64,000 bases of DNA from Tateyamaria omphalii (GTDB lineage Bacteria; Pseudomonadota; Alphaproteobacteria; Rhodobacterales; Rhodobacteraceae). Shown here one piece after another: positions 36,275 to 52,313 of this stretch (position 1 is the first letter of the stretch; each line of letters begins with the position of its first letter). A model generated the notes under the pieces. The model was not told the DNA's origin, ran no database searches, and saw only the letters and a list, made by a program, of their open reading frames with translations. The DNA lies in the NCBI RefSeq assembly GCF_014651375.1, contig NZ_BMWT01000003.1:496001-560000 (forward strand), given 5' to 3'. The position numbers were made by a program, and so were the translations under genes.

Positions 36275-36702
36275 CCCAGCAACGAGAAATGGTGCCGCTT
36301 CACGGTGATCCCCCGATCTGTCAGCACAGTTTCGAATGTGTCTGCGGGTGGCGTCGCTTCGAGTGGGACACGCACTTTGCGACCCGATGTCAGCACTGCG
36401 CTGGCTCGCACGGAAAAGTCGAGACGGGTATCGAGGCGGATATGGTCGATCTTGTCCCACGCGATGTCTCCGGCGCGGCGGCCCGCAAACCAGCTGAGCC
36501 CGTCCGATGCCAAGGCAAGGCCCGCGCTGCGCCCGGAGATCAGGTCATAGAGCGCGGGTGCCGTGCACAGTGCGATCAGCGCCATGAGGATCAGGGATGC
36601 GTCAAGCAGCGCGATGGCCGCAAGGATCAAGGTCCACACAACCACTAGCGCAACCAGCGTCCGCCGGTTGCGCCCGGTTGCTTCGTACCGGTAAGGCGTC
36701 AT
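36271..36702 (-). CDS. Two-segment membrane protein with PH-like C-terminal part
   Basis: The 143-residue protein starts with a charged stretch (MTPYRYEATGRNRRT), then two hydrophobic segments (about residues 17-35 and 38-55) and a C-terminal domain of beta character: GLSWFAGRRAGDIAWDKIDHIRLDT. This resembles PH-like or bPH domains of small membrane proteins. Function unknown. Its stop overlaps the lipoprotein-hydrolase start (four bases) and its start overlaps the SDR stop by four bases, so it belongs to the SDR-membrane-hydrolase operon. Confidence 0.7.
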   Translation of the reverse strand: MTPYRYEATGRNRRTLVALVVVWTLILAAIALLDASLILMALIALCTAPALYDLISGRSAGLALASDGLSWFAGRRAGDIAWDKIDHIRLDTRLDFSVRASAVLTSGRKVRVPLEATPPADTFETVLTDRGITVKRHHFSLLG

Positions 36703-37442
36703 CGTCCGCCGGTGACGTCAAGGGTCGAGCCTGTGACATAGCTCGCCCCGTCTGACGCGAGCCAGAGGATTGCCTTGGCCACTTCCTCGGCCGACCCTTC
36801 GCGGCGCATGGGTACCATATGGGCCAGCTTCTGCGCGCGCCCGGGCTCGCCCCCTTTGGCATGCAGCTCGGTGTCGATCAGGCCCGGGCGGACCGACATG
36901 ACGCGAATGCCATCGGGTGCCACCTCGTCCGATAGGCCCTTGGTAAATGTGTCGATCGCGGCCTTGGACGCGGCATAGTCAATATATTGATTGCCAGACC
37001 CCAGACGCGCTGCAGCAGAGGAGATGTTGATGATCACACCGCCCGTCCCCTGCGCCTGCATCCGGGTGACCGCTTCCTTGGCGACGAGCATCGCACCGAT
37101 CACGTTGACATTCATCATGCGTGTCAGACGTGCATGGTCGATGTCGGTCAGCTTGGCGGTCTGATCCACGATACCGGCATTGTTGATCAGCACGTCGACA
37201 CGGCCAAAGGCGTCGTCTGCGGCCTGGTAGATGCGGGCGATGTCTTCGGGATCGGCTACGTCCCCTTGCACGGTGATGGCGGTGCCGCCAGCCGCTTCGA
37301 CCGCAGACTTTGCCGCGTTTGCGCCGCCCAGATCAGACCGGTAGGCCAGCACGAAATCATAGTCAGCGGCACCAAGCCGGACACATGCGGCACCAATACC
37401 GGCGGACGCGCCAGTGATCAGGCAGACAGGGCGTTTGGACAT
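36699..37442 (-). CDS. SDR family oxidoreductase
   Basis: The 247-residue protein is a classical short-chain dehydrogenase/reductase: LITGASAGIGAACV (nucleotide loop), NNAGIV, serine in INISSAAARLGS, and Y-A-A-S-K in IDYAASKAAIDTFTK. The C-terminal VRPGLIDTELH and LDVTGGR complete the fold. Members reduce sugars, ketoacyl groups or steroids; the substrate cannot be assigned. The ATG at 37442 is preferred over a frame extending to 37463. It heads a minus-strand operon with the membrane protein and the lipoprotein hydrolase. Confidence 0.9.
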   Translation of the reverse strand: MSKRPVCLITGASAGIGAACVRLGAADYDFVLAYRSDLGGANAAKSAVEAAGGTAITVQGDVADPEDIARIYQAADDAFGRVDVLINNAGIVDQTAKLTDIDHARLTRMMNVNVIGAMLVAKEAVTRMQAQGTGGVIINISSAAARLGSGNQYIDYAASKAAIDTFTKGLSDEVAPDGIRVMSVRPGLIDTELHAKGGEPGRAQKLAHMVPMRREGSAEEVAKAILWLASDGASYVTGSTLDVTGGR

Positions 37443-47714: not shown

Positions 47715-48494
47715 ATGGCGCGGCCCATTATCGGCATCATTTCGAACCACCACGTGATCAATGACGAGTACGAGGTACAGGCGGCTGGCCTGATCAACGT
47801 ATCGGCTGTTGCGGATGTGTCCGAAGGTTTGCCCATGCTGATCCCGGCAGAGCCTGCGAAGGTGCGGATTTCCGATCTGTTGGAACATTGTGCGGGTTTC
47901 GTGTTCACCGGCGGGCGCGCCAATGTGCATCCGGAGGAGTACGGGGAAGAGCCGACCGAGGCCCATGGGGCGTTTGACCGTAACCGGGACAGTGTGACTT
48001 TGCCGCTGATCCGCGCCTGTGTGGAGCGGGGGCAGCCATTTCTGGGCATTTGCCGGGGCTTTCAGGAGGTGAACGTGGCTATGGGCGGGTCGCTTTATCC
48101 TGAGATCCGTGATCTGCCGGGCCGCGACAATCACCGCATGCCACCCGATGGGACGCTGGAAGAGAAGTTTGCCCTGCGCCACGACGTGACTTTTTCCGAG
48201 GGCGGTGTTTTTCACCGTCTGATGGGGCGCCAGTCGGTGCCCACCAACACGTTGCACGGGCAGGGGATCAAAACCGCCGGTCCGCGTGTTGTGGTCGACG
48301 GGCATGCGCCTGATGGGACTGCAGAAGCCATCTATATCGACGGCGCACCCGGTTTTACCCTGTCGGTACAGTGGCACCCGGAGTGGAACGCAAAATGCGA
48401 TCCTGTCTCGCGCCCATTGTTCGAAGCTTTTGGCGAGGCGTGCCGCGATTGGGCGGATGGTGGGCGCGCGCGTTCGGTTTTGCGCTCGGCTTAA
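47715..48494 (+). CDS. Gamma-glutamyl-gamma-aminobutyrate hydrolase-like (peptidase C26) protein
   Basis: This 259-residue class I glutamine amidotransferase-like enzyme has the nucleophile elbow FLGICRGFQEVNVAMGG with catalytic Cys, VQWHPEWN with His and downstream acid residue. Length and motifs match the PuuD-type hydrolases that cleave gamma-glutamyl-GABA in putrescine catabolism. No other put genes are nearby, so the substrate is inferred from family. It starts about 110 bases after the glcG-like gene and is followed by the RAYT gene. Confidence 0.85.
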   Translation: MARPIIGIISNHHVINDEYEVQAAGLINVSAVADVSEGLPMLIPAEPAKVRISDLLEHCAGFVFTGGRANVHPEEYGEEPTEAHGAFDRNRDSVTLPLIRACVERGQPFLGICRGFQEVNVAMGGSLYPEIRDLPGRDNHRMPPDGTLEEKFALRHDVTFSEGGVFHRLMGRQSVPTNTLHGQGIKTAGPRVVVDGHAPDGTAEAIYIDGAPGFTLSVQWHPEWNAKCDPVSRPLFEAFGEACRDWADGGRARSVLRSA

Positions 48495-48529
48495 ACGCCT
48501 GTTAACCACGGTGCTGGCAGGGTGGCGGC

Positions 48530-49108
48530 ATGCCACGTTATGTCCGCTCTGATCGCCCCGGTTCCACCTATTTCTTCACAGCCCGTGCTGCGCGCCGCGG
48601 CACTGATCTGTTCTTGCGCGAGATTGACCCGCTGCGTGCGGCCATGCGCAAGACGCGGGAGAGGTATCCGTTTTCCATAGAAGAGATCGTTGTGTTGGGG
48701 GATGTCATACACACCCTTTGGCAGCTGCCCGAGGAGGATGCAGATTTCTCAACTCGGTGGCGGATGCTAAAAAGCCTGTTCTCCCGATCTGTGGAGGCGC
48801 CGCAGGATGTTGGTGCGCTGCGGTTGCGTGCGGGCGAGAAAGGTCTGTGGCAGCGGCGGTTCTGGGAGCACGCCATCCGGGATGCGGATGATCTGGCGGC
48901 CCATCGGCATATGATTTTCTCTGCCCCTGTACAGGCCGGATTGGTGAACCGTCCGGAAGATTGGCCGCATTCATCAATACACCGGGCGATTGGGCAAGGA
49001 CGCTATCCGGCGTGTGGTCCTGTTGGCCGGGCATATCGTCCATACCCAACTCCGGTGGCAGGGCGCACGACACGTGCGCCTTACGATACCGGAACCGTCG
49101 CCACGTAA
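48530..49108 (+). CDS. REP-associated tyrosine transposase (RAYT)-like, catalytic residues replaced
   Basis: RAYTs are single-copy relatives of IS200/IS605 transposases that process REP sequences. This 192-residue protein aligns in memory with E. coli RAYT: VVLGDVIHTLWQLPEEDADFSTRW, RFWEHAIRDADDLAAHRH and DWPHSSIHRAIGQGRYP. The HUH motif, normally H-x-H, is V59-I60-H61, so the first histidine is absent. The catalytic tyrosine of the D-Y-I-Y-I-N-P block is Met128. The gene is intact, yet cleavage chemistry should be lost. Its last residues and stop codon TAA (49106-49108) lie in the REP array. Confidence 0.75.
   Translation: MPRYVRSDRPGSTYFFTARAARRGTDLFLREIDPLRAAMRKTRERYPFSIEEIVVLGDVIHTLWQLPEEDADFSTRWRMLKSLFSRSVEAPQDVGALRLRAGEKGLWQRRFWEHAIRDADDLAAHRHMIFSAPVQAGLVNRPEDWPHSSIHRAIGQGRYPACGPVGRAYRPYPTPVAGRTTRAPYDTGTVAT
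49062..49084 (-). repeat. REP element 1 (inverted), inside the RAYT 3' end
   Basis: GGCGCAC GACAC GTGCGCC (49062-49080) followed by TTAC gives a hairpin with the head GTAA on the minus strand. It overlaps the coding 3' end of the RAYT gene. Paired with element 2 in opposite orientation. Confidence 0.7.
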
Positions 49109-49127
49109 GGCGGGGCTGTGTCCCGCC
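49105..49127 (+). repeat. REP element 2 (forward)
   Basis: GTAA (49105-49108) heads a hairpin GGCGGG, seven-base loop, CCCGCC (49109-49127). The TAA inside GTAA is the RAYT stop codon. Confidence 0.75.
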
Positions 49128-49160
49128 CACGGGCATTTGAATGGTGCGATGACGTGATCT

Positions 49161-49183
49161 GTAAGGCGGAGGTGTCCTCCGCC
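49161..49183 (+). repeat. REP element 3 (forward)
   Basis: GTAA (49161-49164) precedes the eight-pair hairpin GGCGGAGG TGT CCTCCGCC (49165-49183). With element 4 it forms an inverted pair, like a BIME. Confidence 0.75.
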
Positions 49184-49186
49184 ATC

Positions 49187-49208
49187 GGCGGATCAGGATC
49201 CGCCTTAC
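49187..49208 (-). repeat. REP element 4 (inverted), overlapping the SDR stop
   Basis: GGCGGAT CAGG ATCCGCC (49187-49204) followed by TTAC (49205-49208) reads GTAA plus hairpin on the minus strand. The TTA at 49205-49207 is the TAA stop of the minus-strand SDR gene. Confidence 0.75.
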
Positions 49209-49972
49209 GCCGTCTGCCCGCCAGAGATCTGGATGCATTGACCGTTAATGCTTTGCGATCCGGGGCTAACGAGCCAAAGCGCCGCAGCAGCCACTTCATC
49301 GGCATCGATCAGCCGTTTGTGTCGGTTCGCGTCGATCATCACTTGCCGTGCGTCTTCAGTACTCATTCCCGTCCGTTCCGCAATGGCGACCTGATTGCGG
49401 TCGACGATCGGCGTGTCGACATATCCGGGGCAGAGCGCGTTGAAGGTATAGGGCTGGCCCATGTAGTCTTCGCTGAGGCTTCGGACCAGACCGATCAACC
49501 CGTGCTTGGATGCTGAATATGCGGCACCACCCGGCAAACCTCGTAGCCCGGCTATCGACGACACAGCAATCACGCGGCCCCAATCCGTTTCGCGCATGCC
49601 GGGCAAACAGGCACGGATGGTCAGAAAGGCACCATCCAGATTCGTGGCCATCATGTTCCGCCAAAAATCCAGTTTGGTTTTGTGCAGGGCGCGCCCCTCG
49701 GCGATGCCGGCATTGGGAACGCAAATCTGGACGGGCCCGCGTTTTGCGACAGCATCGTTGACTACAGCATTGACCGAGGCTTCGTCCCTGACATCCATGG
49801 CAGCACCCCAGATCCCGTCACCCGCGACTTGGTCCAGAACCTCTTGCCTTCGTCCGGTGATCGTGACCTGTGCTCCACGCTCCTGCAGCGCATGTGCGAT
49901 CGCAAGACCAATGCCGGTGCCGCCGCCAGTGACCAGGGCATGTTTGCCGGTGAGAAATGTGTCGGATGTCAT
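49205..49972 (-). CDS. SDR family NAD(P)-dependent oxidoreductase
   Basis: The 255-residue protein is a classical SDR: ALVTGGGTGIGLAIAHAL (nucleotide loop), VPNAGIAEG, serine in VIAVSSIAGLRG, Y-x-x-x-K in AYSASKHGLIGLV, and C-terminal CIQISGGQTA. It resembles the 3-hydroxyacyl or 3-hydroxybutyrate dehydrogenase-like group, but the substrate is not assigned. The ATG at 49972 is preferred over the longer frame (to 50038). Its stop codon lies in REP element 4, and it is convergent with the RAYT gene. Confidence 0.88.
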   Translation of the reverse strand: MTSDTFLTGKHALVTGGGTGIGLAIAHALQERGAQVTITGRRQEVLDQVAGDGIWGAAMDVRDEASVNAVVNDAVAKRGPVQICVPNAGIAEGRALHKTKLDFWRNMMATNLDGAFLTIRACLPGMRETDWGRVIAVSSIAGLRGLPGGAAYSASKHGLIGLVRSLSEDYMGQPYTFNALCPGYVDTPIVDRNQVAIAERTGMSTEDARQVMIDANRHKRLIDADEVAAAALWLVSPGSQSINGQCIQISGGQTA

Positions 49973-50139
49973 GAGGCTGTTCCCTTTGCGCCAAGGAGTG
50001 GGCCAACACTGCGTGGTCCGTGCCGAAGGATCAATCACAATTCATCGGATGCCTGCGCCATTCGTCGCGGTCTTTCTGCAACGCATTGACAGGCCTCCGT
50101 CTTTTCTTTTCAGGTGCGATCAAAGTTAACGTGTGTCAA

Positions 50140-50592: not shown

Positions 50593-50738
50593 AAATTTTC
50601 GAATATTACTTTTATGACGCAGGGGCGCTGCTTGTATCTCGGAGATGGGTTGGGTAGGGGACAGCTTACGGCGCTGCGCCACATCGCCTTTGGGTTAAGC
50701 GTGAAATTGACTGCCACGAACGGATGGGGGTTCTTCGA

Positions 50739-52313
50739 ATGAAGATCGGAACACCAAAAGAGATATTTGAGGGAGAGCGCCGCGTCGCCATGACGCCAGA
50801 GAGCGCCGCAGCCCTGCAAAAACTGGGCCACGACTGTGTGGTCGAGACGGGCGCGGGGGCCGAGGCCGGTTTTTCCGATGCCGACTACAAGGCTGCTGGC
50901 GTTGAAGTGGTCAAGACCGCTGCTGCCCTCTGGAAGGCCGCTGACATCGTTGCCAAGGTACGCGCGCCCGACGCGACCGAGATGAAGCGCCTGCGCGAAG
51001 ATCAGACCCTGATTTCGTTCTTCAGCCCCGTTGCGGACGAAGCCAAGATGCAGTCGGCTGCCAAGAAGGGCGCCACCGTCGTTGCGATGGAGATGATCCC
51101 CCGCATCAGCCGTGCCCAGAAGATGGACGCGCTGTCGTCCATGGCGAACATCGCGGGTTACCGCGCGGTCATCGAGGCCGGCAACAATTTCGGCCGCTTC
51201 TTTACCGGTCAGATCACGGCGGCGGGCAAGGTGCCCCCGGCCAAGGTTCTGGTGGTTGGCGCAGGCGTGGCCGGTCTGGCGGCCATCGGGACATCGACCA
51301 GCCTCGGTGCCATCACCTATGCCTTTGACGTGCGTCCCGAAGTGGCTGAACAAGTCGAGTCCATGGGCGCCGAATTCGTCTATCTAGACTTTGAAGAAGA
51401 ACAGCAGGACGGATCCTCGTCCGGCGGCTATGCCTCTGTTTCTTCGCCTGAATTCCGTGAGGCGCAGCTGGCCAAGTTTCGGGAACTGGCGCCCGAGATG
51501 GACATCGTCATCACCACGGCCCTGATCCCCAACCGCGAAGCGCCGGAACTGTGGACCGAGGACATGGTGAAGTCCATGAAACCCGGTTCTGTCATCGTGG
51601 ACCTTGCGGCAGAGAAGGGCGGCAACTGCAAGCTGACCGTCGCGGATGAAAAGATCGTAACCGAAAATGGTGTGACGATCATCGGCTACACTGACTTCCC
51701 AAGCCGCATGGCAACACAGTCGTCGAGCCTGTATGCCACGAACATCCGTCACCTGATGACGGACCTGACGCCGGAAAAAGACGGTGTCATCAACCATGAC
51801 ATGGAAGATGACGTGATCCGCGGCGCGACCATCGCTCATGCGAAGGAGGTCACCTTCCCACCACCGCCGCCCAAAGTGGCTGCGATCGCCGCAGCTCCGA
51901 AAAAGGAAGCGGCAAAAGAACTGACGCCTGAAGAGAAACGTGCCGAGGAAGTGGCTGCGTTCAAGGCGCAGACGAAGAACCAGGTCACTTTGCTGGCCAT
52001 TGGCGGGGCGCTGGTACTGCTCGCTGGGCTTTATACCCCGGCCAGCTTCATGCAGCACTTCATCGTCTTCGTGCTGAGCGTGTTTATCGGTTTCCAGGTG
52101 ATCTGGGGCGTGGCGCACAGCCTGCACACGCCGCTGATGGCGGTGACGAACGCCATTTCTTCCATCGTGATCCTTGGCGCTCTCATACAGATCGGATCGA
52201 GTTCAGGGGTCATCACGTTCCTGGCGATCTTCGGGATATTCATGGCGGCCATCAACATATTTGGTGGCTTCCTCGTGACACGGCGCATGCTCGCCATGTT
52301 CCAGAAATCGTAA
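50739..52313 (+). CDS. pntA: NAD(P) transhydrogenase subunit alpha
   Basis: PntA carries the NAD(H)-binding domain and part of the membrane domain of the proton-translocating transhydrogenase, which makes NADPH from NADH. The 524-residue protein starts MKIGTPKEIFEGERRVAMTP, holds the Rossmann motif VGAGVAGLAAIGTSTSLGA and DVRPEVAEQVESMGAEF, then a Lys/Glu-rich linker near residue 395 and four C-terminal membrane segments. The single-chain alpha form matches E. coli PntA. pntB follows after 15 bases. Confidence 0.95.
   Translation: MKIGTPKEIFEGERRVAMTPESAAALQKLGHDCVVETGAGAEAGFSDADYKAAGVEVVKTAAALWKAADIVAKVRAPDATEMKRLREDQTLISFFSPVADEAKMQSAAKKGATVVAMEMIPRISRAQKMDALSSMANIAGYRAVIEAGNNFGRFFTGQITAAGKVPPAKVLVVGAGVAGLAAIGTSTSLGAITYAFDVRPEVAEQVESMGAEFVYLDFEEEQQDGSSSGGYASVSSPEFREAQLAKFRELAPEMDIVITTALIPNREAPELWTEDMVKSMKPGSVIVDLAAEKGGNCKLTVADEKIVTENGVTIIGYTDFPSRMATQSSSLYATNIRHLMTDLTPEKDGVINHDMEDDVIRGATIAHAKEVTFPPPPPKVAAIAAAPKKEAAKELTPEEKRAEEVAAFKAQTKNQVTLLAIGGALVLLAGLYTPASFMQHFIVFVLSVFIGFQVIWGVAHSLHTPLMAVTNAISSIVILGALIQIGSSSGVITFLAIFGIFMAAINIFGGFLVTRRMLAMFQKS

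Follow-up and report, generated by a model that had tools for sequence, protein, structure and literature searches.

In the genome of Tateyamaria omphalii (G000; G and L numbers denote genomes and loci, respectively), the gene of a REP-associated tyrosine transposase (RAYT) that adjoins an array of GTAA-headed hairpins has, with a probability that we put at roughly two in three from comparative sequence evidence, been domesticated into a non-cutting REP-binding protein, which reads REPs at the 3' ends of genes. The window, namely, the whole stretch of DNA analysed here, is 64,000 nucleotides long. In this proposal, the transposase has lost the residues of its active site and kept its guide-contact region, and purifying selection maintains its gene, which in one half of the clade occupies a single chromosomal place. 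The sites that it would recognise are about 100 GTAA-headed hairpins with no clear sign of having moved recently between two sister species. Most are inherited in place, conservation being higher in head and stem than in loop and flanks, and nearly all lie at the 3' ends of genes, where they often supply the stop codon. The most likely action would be that the protein binds the hairpin, extruded or transcribed, in a sequence-specific manner where genes end, which may affect transcript ends, read-through or convergent transcription. The residue losses, the kept contact region, the selection, synteny and co-occurrence, the conservation of sites and their 3'-end position can be read from the sequences, whereas we infer the absence of catalysis, the binding of REPs by the protein and the effect of that binding alike.

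Four hairpin units with GTAA heads were found at exactly the coordinates claimed in an earlier sequence-only reading of the window: element 1 (49062..49084, minus strand), element 2 (49105..49127, plus), element 3 (49161..49183, plus) and element 4 (49187..49208, minus). As described there, they form two inverted pairs, elements 1 and 2 being head to head and elements 3 and 4 tail to tail, in the order - + + -. The same reading placed the array between the RAYT gene and a gene for a short-chain-type (SDR-family) oxidoreductase; this needs correction, as element 1 is contained entirely in the 3' coding end of the RAYT ORF (48530-49108), where it encodes part of ...GRTTRAPYD..., and the RAYT and SDR genes take their stop codons from REP heads, the former from the TAA of element 2 (49106-49108) and the latter from that of element 4 (49207-49205, minus strand). 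Element 3 has the stem variant GGCGGAGGTGTCCTCCGCC, which recurs at many sites and has the same sequence at the corresponding locus of another genome of the genus, G304. The SDR gene (49205..50038, minus strand, start codon provisional; Pfam adh_short, 8.8e-49) is the convergent neighbour. Upstream, a peptidase C26 gene (class-I glutamine amidotransferase-like; 47715..48494, plus strand; Pfam, 9.8e-60) is conserved by synteny, and the conserved outer neighbour at 50724..52313 (plus strand; synteny by tblastn) is one that we take, by recognition, to be PntA-like. The pattern GTAAGGCGN{4,14}CGCC occurs five times in the window, the fifth occurrence (36691-36710) having no proper hairpin, whereas dinucleotide shuffles of the window gave a mean of 0.07 matches and a maximum of 1 in 100 shuffles. 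An Rfam search of 48400-49800 returned no family, and one chance miRNA match (E 0.23).

The RAYT-derived gene (48530..49108, plus strand) encodes 192 amino acids. It had been called RAYT-like, and indeed it matches the RAYT family profile NF047646 with 150.8 bits (cut-off 80); a Pfam search of the protein gave no family at E 0.001. The nearest named RAYT records are from Tateyamaria (L032, 92%; L033, 64%; L034, 62%), and a profile of nine relatives has a sole solved-structure match, 4er8, that is, TnpA_REP bound to a REP (E 1.6e-46). An AlphaFold2 model of the protein (pLDDT 85.6, pTM 0.78) also has 4er8 as its top Foldseek match (E 2.2e-16; TM 0.72 by query and 0.84 by target length), and the model is thus predicted to have the TnpA_REP fold. 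The catalytic residues are lost, the listed positions reading V59, H61, M128, A132 and A136. In the degenerate HUH motif (48704..48712, plus strand), V59-I60-H61 stands against H-u-H in live relatives, V59 taking the place of the first histidine, and in the degenerate Y motif (48911..48925, plus strand), M128...A132 stands against the Y...N of Y---NP (nucleophile and third metal ligand), the role of this asparagine (N119) being that given in the available part of PMC6006769. From its sequence, the RAYT of the window is an apparent pseudoenzyme, and from these residues and the stability of the sites described below, we infer that it would neither cleave nor move REPs. The pairing of REPs with a RAYT, proposed for this locus by analogy with enterobacteria and pseudomonads, survives in that a RAYT-family gene lies beside REPs, but it is not an ordinary REP/RAYT pair, because the residues by which an active REP transposase is defined are gone from this RAYT.

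Among 179 distinct RAYT-like ORFs that were read, 118 have all four residues (live), 35 are of the dead-clade type by rule and 26 are other. Fifty-one positions are at least 90% conserved in the 118 live homologues, and five of them are lost in the dead clade: H59, Y128 and N132, which helped to define "live", and K135 and H136, which did not. The others are kept in at least 80% of 38 dead-clade members (36 positions) or partly kept (10 positions), L255 and L164 having been dropped from this count as long-branch degenerate copies. N132 and H136 are absent in all 38 members; position 132 is A in 37 and S in one, and position 136 is A in all. The second histidine is also lost in two members of the genus (VIY in L151 and L153). 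In E. coli TnpA_REP, the guide-contact region comprises W94, Q95, E100, H101 and R104, the role of W94 being called unclear (PMC6006769, in the part available). These residues align with W107, Q108, E113, H114 and R117 here, which are kept in 38, 37, 37, 37 and 35 of the 38 dead-clade members, respectively, and judged by these aligned residues the region that contacts the guide tetranucleotide is retained. The C-terminal tail, which in E. coli contacts the last two guide bases (PMC8266576, available in part), is variable here, which tells against the proposal. The same portion of that paper reports GTAG to be essential for E. coli TnpA_REP, and head changes to be largely tolerated by a Stenotrophomonas enzyme for binding and by a Marinomonas enzyme for cleavage; a changed fourth base is thus compatible with binding by a relative.

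The dead clade is present in 13 of 294 genera. Its 35 tips are monophyletic (ultrafast bootstrap 99, SH-aLRT 94; 104 rows, motif columns removed), and a larger quick tree gave an SH-aLRT of 90 for 40 dead-clade tips; the tree of 104 rows was made without L145, L154, L155, L164 and L255. On the reduced tree, dead-clade membership changes once, head state three times and tyrosine state eight times. Members with both histidines are nested inside the clade (L118, HHLA; L120 and L121, HHFA; L042, HHYA), so the histidine, and probably the tyrosine too, was lost more than once where the third ligand was already gone. L042, from a Flavimaricola MAG, has GTAA REPs and keeps both histidines and the tyrosine, with N changed to A and H136 to A; it may be an intermediate or a reversion, and because of it not every member of the clade is provably dead. 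GlcG and peptidase C26 lie upstream of the RAYT at all 18 loci examined in the genus (17 genomes), and the SDR lies downstream at 16 of the 18 (L149 and L112 are without it). The same neighbours, turned round, are found in L036-L038 (Roseobacter), G187, G251 and G055; fewer of them are in reach in G188 and G134, L117 has PntA alone, and none of the neighbourhood is seen at L115, L118, L120, L121, L042, L035, L039, L040, L044, L064, L116 and L247. Half of the clade is thus fixed at one place, and half is elsewhere.

With a single RAYT found in G000, the suggested look at copies near other RAYT genes applies only between genomes; there, the GTAA head accompanies the dead RAYT clade, and live RAYTs have the canonical GTAG head. 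Of the 35 dead genes, 17 have GTAA hairpins beside them and 2 have GTAG hairpins; of the 118 live genes, 2 have GTAA hairpins and 54 GTAG hairpins. For live members of this family alone, the counts are 37/51 for GTAG and 2/51 for GTAA. A looser scan found GTAA at three of the 118 live genes, each with GTAG too, and the exceptions within the dead clade are GTAG at L064 and L259 and both heads at L114. A survey of 295 genomes of 294 genera with a general GTAA-hairpin pattern gave ten genomes with at least 12 hairpins, a cut-off set after the counts were seen, and nine of them carry a dead-clade RAYT (G000, G240, G049, G081, G163, G187, G188, G284 and G294). Such populations therefore occur in 9 of 14 dead-clade carriers as against 1 of 281 other genomes (Fisher p 4.8e-13, kinship ignored); from the 96 RAYT-positive genomes, 69 loci besides the window's own were fetched, so that not every RAYT was read. 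The five remaining carriers (G159, G251, G257, G055 and G134) have 0-5 general-pattern hairpins; G239 has 11. Since the head change and the catalytic loss are both on one clade, their association is essentially one event. Within the genus (20 genomes), REP counts are 5-108 in the 15 genomes whose dead copy is intact and 0-3 in the five others; two of these five have shortened and diverged copies (G301 and G302), one a remnant (G306), and in two none was found (G308 and G299). G310, with an intact dead RAYT and just five REPs, is the weak point of this correlation. Outside it, G053 has 15 GTAA hairpins, those listed being of the GTAAGGTGGGTTTTCAACCCACC type, and no RAYT match, and possibly holds a population that outlived its RAYT.

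The sequence-only reading had made its identification of REPs depend on further copies in the genome, and these are abundant. A loose pattern matches G000 134 times (71 + 63) as against 23 times (8 + 15) in the reversed control, and a strict pattern 108 times (53 + 55) as against 0. The same strict pattern with GTAG has one match in G000, so the head is GTAA, as had been noted, and not the 5' tetranucleotide GT[AG]G of known REPs. High copy number, GC hairpins, adjacency to a RAYT and intergenic position (52 of 78) bear out the units as REPs, and their alternating orientation, - + + - at the window locus and mixed at many other sites, bears out the BIME-like inverted pairs. When 78 REPs were classed by position, 26 were co-directional, 25 convergent, 1 divergent, 12 inside an ORF and 14 unclassified; the 52 intergenic ones are those with both flanks assigned, and, because the acceptance of ORFs relied on third-position substitutions, some of the REPs called "inside" may lie in shadow ORFs. 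The distance from a sense REP to the gene end is exactly -4 in 11 of 42 cases, where the TAA of the head is the stop codon, and in a separate test 13 of the 78 REPs supply an in-frame stop to a coding gene. The donation of TAG stops by GTAG REPs was already known (PMC3733652, in the part available), and the supply of TAA by GTAA heads is another instance of it.

We compared the sites with those of G304, the nearest same-genus genome by RAYT protein. From 43 G000 hairpin sites chosen regardless of G304, one unrelated hairpin was removed; of the 42 left, 30 have a GTAA hairpin in the orthologous G304 interval, three have both flanks there and no such hairpin, and at nine both flanks were not found within the G304 sequence compared, so that the shared sites number at least 30 of 42. 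One of the 30, C3:400415, was counted by a neighbouring hairpin, the head of the direct counterpart having decayed. Most shared arrays keep the order, orientation and individual stem variants of their REPs, with flanks 79-92% identical, although several sites show the loss or alteration of one REP; length is kept within 6 bp at 29 of 34 compared sites. Over 65 REPs, identity is 235/260 (90%) in the head, 453/509 and 462/509 (89-91%) in the arms, 167/211 in the loop and 558/780 and 590/780 (72-76%) in the adjoining 12 bp, figures that are biased toward conserved sites, as most G304 stretches were fetched for holding a REP. A single stretch was taken regardless of REPs, with 318 kb of G000 and 400 kb of G304; of its four sites, both genomes have GTAA hairpins at one, the RAYT locus, and of the other three, one has a hairpin with a decayed head and two are without a hairpin in G304. 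Stem pairs are identical in 401 of 415 orthologue comparisons, from which we claim no covariation, as greedy pairing mis-paired some neighbours. Judged from these alignments, the REP population seems to be mostly inherited in place between G000 and G304. No convincing clean new REP insertion was seen among the sites whose alignments were inspected; C3:404321 (REP in G000) and C2:699879 (REP in G304) were considered as insertions and read instead as in-place decay or replacement. The former (C3:404321-404343, inside L201) is a perfect REP within an ORF, presumably that of RsmE, and its G304 counterpart is of equal length and diverged.

The hairpins could be ordinary bidirectional terminators or other 3'-end hairpins kept for RNA reasons, the dead RAYT doing something unrelated. 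The positions agree with this: the 52 classified REPs are nearly all convergent (25) or co-directional (26), and the co-directional ones are split evenly between sense (13) and antisense (13), a balance by which a role of REPs solely as sense RNA 3' hairpins is unsupported. However, a plain terminator has no need of a head, and the GTAA head is conserved like the stem; moreover, REPs are nearly missing in the five members of the genus in which the dead RAYT is eroded or absent, and the guide-contact residues are conserved. We thus regard this explanation as unlikely.

A decaying leftover, with the RAYT as a transposase gene on its way out and the REPs as relics of an earlier burst that now do nothing, is a quite improbable reading. 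The loss of catalytic residues fits it, as do the sites decayed in one sister species (the head lost at 400415, stem and head changed at 404321), the REP numbers that differ at several sites between the sister species, and the eroded or remnant copies in three members of the genus (G301, G302 and G306). Against it, dN/dS of the dead-clade RAYT is 0.04-0.10 in 11 genus pairs, not above the 0.17 of one live pair; four of five pairs from other genera gave 0.07-0.12 and one with few changes 0.18, and pairs with the eroded copies L154 and L155 gave 0.09-0.21, all of these figures being rough because many synonymous distances are near saturation. The ORFs are intact in 15 members of the genus and in other genera, the losses are concentrated on the active site, and heads (90%) and arms (89-91%) are better conserved than the adjoining 12 bp (72-76%), though in a sample that favours conserved sites. 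These comparisons indicate that the gene is under purifying selection.

It is very unlikely that the RAYT is still an active REP transposase, whether through other residues or with a second RAYT supplying the active site in trans, for although its predicted fold is intact and several other members of the genus carry an additional live HHYN RAYT, no second RAYT was found in G000 and G303 with their 108 and 98 REPs, 29 of 34 sites keep their length without a clean insertion being seen, and the Y115F change alone abolishes the product of E. coli TnpA_REP (PMC8266576, in the part available, where Y130F and Y125F are the catalytic mutants of two other enzymes), whereas here two metal ligands are changed too. 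The searches concerned were with the NF047646 profile, which showed no RAYT besides the window copy in G000 and the dead copy alone in G303, and with PF01797 (Y1 transposase), which had no match in G000 and matched 5 of 14 control genomes. Additional live-type RAYTs are present in G305, G301 and G300 (L161, L159 and L158), the L159 copy having an internal stop. The GTAG REPs by L161 and L159 have a different stem type, so there are two REP systems in one genus.

RAYTs without the catalytic tyrosine also occur outside the dead clade (L128, L134, L254, L257 and L260). Four of the five adjoin GTAG REPs, L134 having GTAA as well, and none was found by L260. That catalytic loss forces the head change as a general rule was rejected, because the tyrosine-less L128, L254 and L257 keep GTAG.

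E. coli TnpA_REP (4er8; RAYT class 2) is like the window RAYT in fold (TM 0.84 by target length for the predicted model), NF047646 membership, guide-contact region, single copy and place beside inverted REPs, whereas the latter is without the first HUH histidine, the tyrosine and the metal-ligand asparagine, and its head is GTAA, not GT[AG]G. The REP, BIME and REPIN populations of E. coli, Pseudomonas and Stenotrophomonas resemble the present one in about 100 copies, GC hairpins of 20-25 nt with a 5' tetranucleotide, inverted pairs, location at gene 3' ends and stop codon donation (as far as the available part of PMC3733652 describes them). Here, however, the head donates TAA, a catalytically complete RAYT was not found in G000, and many sites are common to sister species, which may be a further difference. 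The IS200/IS605 Y1 transposases (IS608 and ISDra2) appear from the model to be distant fold relatives, but PF01797 has no match in G000. Domesticated, catalytically dead transposases act as DNA-binding proteins in eukaryotic examples; the RAYT shares with them the loss of catalysis together with a retained DNA-binding fold and selection, and differs in being a bacterial HUH protein and a putative binder of single-strand hairpins.

The available part of PMC8049555 portrays RAYTs as domesticated genes, present in single copy and passed on vertically, by which REPINs are still copied, though at a very low rate, and their benefit to the host as modelled but not known. An earlier census of the superfamily kept sequences with complete core, HUH and Y motifs (722 of 924) and took the absence of motifs to suggest non-functional proteins (PMC6006769, in part); RAYTs without motifs may thus have been overlooked. 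In a literature search covering titles and the starts of abstracts, with subscription papers mostly outside its reach, we found no earlier report of catalytically dead RAYT clades or GTAA-headed REPs, and no REP work on Rhodobacteraceae. A clade without catalytic residues but with the fold, the contact region and, mostly, a REP population separates binding from transposition, and through it the question of how RAYTs and REPs benefit their hosts becomes testable. A regulon of the Roseobacter group, in which about 100 gene ends carry GTAA hairpins as marks and a pseudotransposase present in single copy reads them, is possible, albeit somewhat doubtful. On that reading, nature would have provided in this clade a separation-of-function mutant of the REP/RAYT system, in which the host benefit of REPs comes from binding at the ends of transcripts or genes and not from transposition, and the switch of the head from GTAG to GTAA would be a conversion from cutting guide to address label.

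The distance from an antisense REP to the gene end is exactly +7 in 9 of 41 cases. Six of these nine belong to a REP subfamily with the tail CCGCACGTCA, the TCA of which is a TGA stop on the other strand. With three mismatches or fewer, this tail is found in 12 of 78 REPs of G000 (0.5 expected from nearby offsets) and in 16 of 104 REPs of G304 (0.33 expected), for example at L341:1517, L001:1500 and L020:1500 in the former and at L275, L311 and L313 in the latter; at L341, one such unit separates a convergent gene pair, with a stop codon at either end. At L014:1592-1618, L030:2135-2161 and L002:1590-1617, a GTAA head is present at both ends, giving a REP on both strands (GTAAGGCGGAGTTAACTCCGCCTTAC type).
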